This document shows, one piece after another, positions 55,578 through 56,816 of a stretch of DNA of 64,000 nucleotides; the stretch's first letter is position 1; the number at the start of each line of letters is the position of its first letter. This stretch comes from Chloroflexota bacterium (GTDB lineage Bacteria > Chloroflexota > UBA6077 > JACCZL01). Location: positions 396,029 to 460,028 of the forward strand of contig JAUJPG010000001.1 of assembly GCA_030447245.1 (NCBI GenBank), given 5' to 3'. A program made the translations under genes and the position numbers. The notes beneath the pieces are model-generated. The model worked only from the letters and a program-made list of their open reading frames with translations, ran no database searches and was not told where the DNA came from.

Positions 55578-56816
55578 ATGCCCCATTTGAAGCACCTTCC
55601 CGACATGAAGCGCAACGAGATGCTGACGTTTCCGGCCCAGGTGAACCACGACACCCCCTGGACGCCACCGGCGCGGCCGCTGCGCGAGGCTCGACTGGCG
55701 CTGGTGACCTCGGCCGGCCTCCACCGCCGCGGCGATCCGCCCTTCGTCAGCAACCATCACGAGCCCGATTACTCCTACCGCCGTCTACCGGCCGACACGC
55801 CGGCCGCCGAGATCCTGCAGAGCCACGCCAGCGCTGGCTTCGACCGCTCCGGCATTCAACGCGACCTCAACACCACCTACCCGGTCGACCGTCTGCGCGA
55901 GCTGCTGATGCGGGGGGCCATTGGGAGCCTGGCCGACAGCTTCTACTCGTTCATGGGCGCGCTGCGGAACGTCGCTCGACTCGAGCAGGAGACCGCGCCC
56001 GCGGTGGCCGAGCTCCTCCGTCAGGACGGCGTCGAGGTCGTCCTGCTCACGCCGACCTGACCGCTCTGCTCGCACACCTGTGGTGTGCTCGCCCGCGTGT
56101 TCGAGGCGTCCGGCCTGTCCAGCGTCCAGATCAGCCTGCTGCGAGAGCATACCGAGAAGATCAGGCCGCCGCGGGCGCTCTTCTGCCCGTTCCCGTTCGG
56201 CCTGGCGCTCGGCAAACCGAACGATCCCGAGTTCCAGCACCGCGTCCTGGACCATGCATTCTCACTGCTCGAGCGCCCGAGCGGCCCGGTCCTCGAAGAC
56301 TTTCCGGAGGAGATCGTCCCCGCGGATGCGCCGGTCACGCCCGCCGAGGAGCGGCCGCCCGATCCTGCGTTTGAGCTGACGGCGCTGCGCGGCTACTACG
56401 ACCGCTTCGTCGCGCACCACGGGCGGACCGCGGTCGGGCTGACCGGCGTGCCGAGCACCCGCTTCCGCGGCCTGGTCCGCCTGCTCGAGAGGTACGCCGC
56501 GGGCGAGGAGATCGAGGCGCCGACACCCGACCTGTCCGCGGCCCAGTACGCCCGGTTCGCCTGCGACGACATCAAGGCCTTCTTCCGCGAGGCGCGCATG
56601 GAGCAGTACCCAGCCGAAAATGGCCCCCAGATCGACGCCTGGTTCTGGCAGCAGACCGCGATGGGCCCCATGATGCGCCGCGTTCGCGACCGCATGCTGG
56701 CGTCTGGCGACCGGCAGGTCGAGATGCTCTCGTATGGGATTTACCGCGAGCCGGACACGCCGAATCCAGAGTGGAAGTACCTGACGCCGACGGCGGTCAA
56801 GACGGACGGCGGGTGA
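55578..56816 (+). CDS. Candidate selenoprotein: glycine/sarcosine/betaine/D-proline reductase selenoprotein B (GrdB/PrdB)-like, Sec at codon 161
   Basis: Same frame either side of TGA 56058..56060: DGVEVVLLTPT(UGA)PLCSHTCGVLARVFEASGL. UxxC motif; RBS ggagg; downstream hairpin GCACACC-TGT-GGTGTGC. Confidence 0.82.
56072..56088 (+). promoter_or_regulatory. Candidate bacterial SECIS element for the GrdB/PrdB-like gene
   Basis: GCACACCTGTGGTGTGC: perfect 7-bp stem, loop TGT starting 19 nt after the UGA with G in second loop position. Confidence 0.7.

Follow-up and report, generated by a model that had tools for sequence, protein, structure and literature searches.

Selenoproteins named 'PrdB' were among the commonest in marine surveys of 2005 and 2008 (PMC1088965; PMC2398784). 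The Sargasso Sea survey of 2005 listed 42 PrdB sequences with a UxxC motif together with OsmC-like selenoproteins carrying UxxT (PMC1088965), and the GOS survey of 2008 reported 235 PrdB sequences (pfam07355, UxxC) along with the OsmC-like UxxT type (PMC2398784). In a 2026 review, the same motifs are given for D-proline reductase TIGR04483 (UxxC) and OsmC-like proteins (UxxT) (PMC13188914). The gene described here lies in a 64,000-nt stretch of Chloroflexota DNA (the window) and encodes a 412-aa protein that shares its Pfam family and UxxC motif with the marine 'PrdB' family; since the surveys already list such selenoproteins, the family is not new, and the gene at 55578..56816 adds a member. 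Unlike the survey sequences, which were compared by family and motif, this member comes from another, GC-rich lineage; SAR116-type relatives share both its UGA and its long architecture. With clostridial PrdB, the 26-kDa subunit of D-proline reductase (TIGR04483), the protein shares a homologous domain, the place of Sec and the UxxC motif, whereas it differs in length (412 aa vs a 238-position model), in scoring about half the equivalog cut-off, and in that a PrdA-type partner was not found in the source genome. The selenoproteins of glycine, sarcosine and betaine reductases (GrdB/GrdF/GrdH) are matched over PF07355 positions 211-347, up to the residue before Sec; however, the 412-aa protein lacks the N-terminal half of GrdB, has an added helical C-terminal domain, and has no GrdE-type partner that could be found.

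The frame that opens at ATG 55578 runs to TGA 56814-56816 with the TGA at 56058-56060 as its sole interruption, and the junction reads VVLLTPT-U-PLCSHTCG. The features of the locus are collected in Table 1.

Table 1. Features of the selenoprotein locus, numbered by position in the window.
Feature	Coordinates	Strand	Basis
Long-form PrdB/GrdB-like selenoprotein gene (412 aa, Sec = residue 161)	55578..56816	+	Translation with TGA = U; PF07355; alignment of 23 full-length members
In-frame UGA read as selenocysteine (predicted), U161 of UPLC motif	56058..56060	+	TGA column in relatives; Cys in P0007 and P0014
Shine-Dalgarno-like AGGAGGTGA upstream of ATG 55578	55565..55573	+	Read directly from sequence
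Bacterial SECIS-type hairpin GCACACC-TGT-GGTGTGC	56072..56088	+	Covariation in 19 sequences; RNA fold
N-terminal alpha/beta PrdB/GrdB-type domain, ~residues 1-241	55578..56300	+	TIGR04483 match; AlphaFold model
C-terminal all-helical domain, ~residues 263-386	56364..56735	+	AlphaFold model helices; without Pfam family
Second hidden selenoprotein gene, OsmC-like	54340..54828	+	TGA 54532-54534; AIAG-U-MYGT; PF02566
HAD-family hydrolase (haloacid dehalogenase-like), between both selenoprotein genes	54842..55516	+	PF00702, 73 bits

In bacterial SECIS elements, the apical loop lies about 16-37 nt downstream of the UGA. The stem at 56072-56088 begins 11 nt past the UGA and its loop 19 nt past it, within that range, with G as the second loop base; the position, the loop distance and a G within the first two loop bases had all been proposed in the initial annotation and agree with the sequence. 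RNA folding reproduces the stem (-18.1 kcal/mol, z = -2.85). An Rfam scan of the 64-kb window returned no match. Across 19 sequences, 96.5% of stem cells are paired, and 21 cells are changed on both sides, compared with 5.7 +/- 1.8 in shuffles, none of 500 of which reached as high a count. When the stem partners were slid, double changes numbered at most 5 in the same 19 sequences. Paired changes among relatives include GCGTAC-GTACGC, GCGCGC-GCGCGC and GCACAC-GTGTGC, and the spacing from UGA to hairpin is the same in nearly all of them. Synonymous codons would give some stem variation, but not such a paired pattern.

Relatives were drawn from one-genome-per-species contigs (26 loci) and from 29 genomes of the same class. 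TGA occupies the Sec column in 26/26 relatives from reference genomes of several phyla and at 22/22 further homologous sites in same-class genomes, with identity falling to about 25%; two database homologs have Cys instead (TPTCPFC in P0007, TPVCPLC in P0014). The conservation of UGA 56058 and the covariation of its hairpin are far beyond chance. The UGA-bearing relatives belong to Chloroflexota, Acidimicrobiia, SAR116 and other Alphaproteobacteria, and Desulfobacterota MAGs. The initial annotation had joined two ORFs into one frame broken just by this TGA, placed a UxxC motif there, and proposed a true Sec codon missed by the ORF track, to be checked by looking for U or C in the homologous column. 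Translation bears out the single frame and the motif (TPT-U-PLC), and the Sec codon is upheld by a TGA kept at all 48 other homologous sites, by Cys in the two remaining homologs, and by the Sec machinery of the genome.

Two other readings of the interrupted frame must be weighed against these data. The gene could be broken, the UGA being either a genuine stop or an artifact of sequencing in the MAG; the contig may indeed contain indels, since a metY-like region at 51563-53122 is spread over several frames. Against this stand the retention of the TGA and covarying hairpin in independent genomes of several phyla, the presence of Sec machinery, and purifying selection that persists past the UGA in relatives: in the ten close pairs for which it could be calculated, dN/dS was 0-0.24 upstream of the UGA and 0.05-0.30 downstream, far below 1 on both sides. 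A broken gene is thus exceedingly improbable. The other reading holds that there are two separate proteins, the second initiated at GTG 56085 or further downstream (56085..56816), and gene callers do list C-terminal pieces of this kind for many relatives; among the database matches listed, most are ~230 aa and span just the part past the UGA, as expected if gene callers stop there. Yet conservation is unbroken across the UGA, with P159, position 161 (the Sec column), P162 and Cys164 invariant among the 23 long-form members, each of the two Cys homologs, P0007 and P0014, is one full-length protein, and no Shine-Dalgarno-like site is apparent upstream of 56085, so that two proteins are just as improbable. 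The stretch 55578..56816 is therefore almost certainly one gene, predicted to be decoded through Sec into a single protein.

The metY-like region itself, a Cys/Met-metabolism PLP enzyme on the minus strand, adjoins a weak alpha/beta hydrolase piece (53400-54314, minus strand), possibly metX-like; the two reflect either assembly indels or decayed genes. Elsewhere in the window, adjacent DUF5615 (PIN-like) and DUF433 genes (49385-50301, minus strand) resemble a toxin-antitoxin type pair, and a ComA-type phosphosulfolactate synthase homolog (62143-62943, plus strand; PF02679, 283 bits) is unexpected outside coenzyme M/sulfolactate pathways.

The source genome (G000) is a MAG of 5.2 Mb in 131 contigs, about 90% complete. 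All four components of Sec insertion that the initial annotation had named for a genome search were found in it: tRNA-Sec (C73:334610-334703, 69.6 bits, anticodon TCA); selA (547 bits) followed by an adjacent selB (332 bits) at C73:190475-192960; and selD (C69, locus L021), which itself has an in-frame TGA at the usual site (HGAG-U-ACK, locus position 1531). Among 16 genomes with the UGA form, selA passed the cut-off in 14, and one more had a selA fragment; because nearly all genomes of the class have selA (27/29), its presence is non-discriminating within the class. Sec insertion at UGA 56058, as predicted from sequence, is supported by comparative genomics. Translation would begin at 55578, and the ribosome would meet the hairpin 56072-56088 at the UGA; the hairpin would bring in SelB and Sec-tRNA, selenocysteine would be inserted, and translation would go on to 56814. 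The predicted product joins a PrdB/GrdB-type alpha/beta domain, bearing the redox motif UPLC, to a helical domain. In this putative enzyme, Sec161 would attack the substrate, Cys164 would resolve the selenenyl-sulfide, and cellular thiols would re-reduce the pair.

The 412-aa protein passes the Pfam GRDB family PF07355 (51.8 bits, gathering cut-off 22), which matches 23/23 long-form members. Its match ends at residue 160, the residue before Sec, at model position 347 of 347; the Pfam model itself thus apparently stops at the Sec codon, perhaps because it was built from UGA-truncated sequences. Among NCBIfam models, PrdB TIGR04483 matches best (153.5 bits, E 6e-45, residues 25-231), and the model for selenoprotein B of glycine/betaine/sarcosine/D-proline reductase, TIGR01918, gives 50.7 bits, under its subfamily cut-off of 65.45. 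An AlphaFold model (mean pLDDT 82.7) contains a confident alpha/beta domain at ~39-241 and a helical domain at 263-386. The latter had no convincing Pfam match in any of the 23 members, although D331, W355 and G363 are conserved C-terminal residues in their alignment. A PDB sequence search (single sequence and profile) returned no relative, and a PDB fold search with the AlphaFold model gave nothing at E <= 0.001, with low TM-scores. By length, the homologs fall into two groups, long (about 380-443 aa) and short (about 235-270 aa).

The family assignment raises the possibility of a Stickland enzyme, with the protein as Sec subunit of a genuine D-proline or glycine/betaine/sarcosine reductase. 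The best match to PrdB and the shared UxxC motif and Sec position speak for this. However, the score of 153.5 bits falls well short of the PrdB equivalog cut-off of 300, the protein is likewise well below the cut-offs of the GrdB, GrdF and GrdH models, it has about 180 extra residues at its C terminus, and no partner gene adjoins 55578..56816. A search for the GrdE/PrdA-type pyruvoyl subunit (PF09338) found no match in the ~90% complete source genome, an absence that is not absolute because of that incompleteness, whereas the same search was positive in five same-class genomes (G011, G019, G020, G021 and G022), where short-form members were found. Four genomes with PrdB-like genes (G008, G013, G016 and G027) had no PF09338 match. 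A profile search for GrdA (PF04723) found no match in the source genome and equally none in any control genome. With the PrdB cut-off missed and no PrdA/GrdE gene found, a Stickland reductase is very unlikely. Of the initial reading as a GrdB/PrdB-like reductase, the PF07355 membership and UxxC motif hold; the scores lie under the PrdB/GrdB-type cut-offs, and the Stickland-type label is not borne out. Nor is the genomic setting odd, as had been suggested, since UGA relatives occur in several phyla, and descriptions of the group from the open ocean date back to 2005 and 2008.

Because no pyruvoyl partner gene was found, the protein does not appear to serve D-proline or glycine reductase as Sec subunit; instead of an amino-acid reductase, we favor a selenol/thiol redox enzyme that acts on its own. 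A comparison of gene neighborhoods among relatives revealed no conserved neighbor that would name a substrate. Apart from the gene's own shadow ORFs, the sole recurrent neighbor is a short-chain dehydrogenase, which appears in as many as 9 loci but at no fixed place; this family is too common to name a function. In one same-class genome (G020), a large expansion was observed, with 11 PrdB/GrdB-like UGA genes (L054, L064, L066, L069, L071-L077) and five PF09338 genes; some of these PrdB/GrdB-like copies lack the second Cys of UxxC.

The second selenoprotein gene, absent from the initial annotation, lies about 0.75-1.2 kb upstream of the PrdB-like gene. Its joined product passes PF02566 (34.3 bits, cut-off 27.5), and its TGA is retained in four other same-class genomes, two of them with 76% identity and the other two less closely related, so that an OsmC domain is combined with a conserved in-frame UGA where the peroxidatic Cys would stand. 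The hairpin downstream of this UGA (z = -1.5) is weaker evidence alone. Its closest known counterparts are the OsmC-like selenoproteins of the surveys, for which UxxT is given as the motif; here PF02566 goes with a U-M-Y-G-T site, in which T stands at U+4. The OsmC-like gene, the HAD hydrolase gene and the PrdB-like gene share a strand and are separated by 13 and 61 nt, which suggests an operon, and both selenoprotein genes probably belong to it. Relatives did not show the OsmC-HAD-PrdB order, and the link may therefore be local; nor is the HAD gene a conserved neighbor among them. Probable co-transcription with the OsmC-like gene suggests peroxide or electrophile detoxification, a role that we offer only tentatively for the PrdB-like selenoprotein. 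With two Sec codons within 1.6 kb, this apparent operon stands out as a redox unit that depends on selenium.

These results correct a gene split in two by annotation pipelines, a split that is also visible across many database entries. UGA-containing forms related to the long form are common in marine metagenomes. With no partner subunit detected here and an undescribed domain, the long form merits another name in place of D-proline reductase; on balance, long-form 'PrdB' may well constitute a distinct family of stand-alone selenoenzymes, with its own helical C-terminal domain, in bacteria outside the Stickland fermenters.
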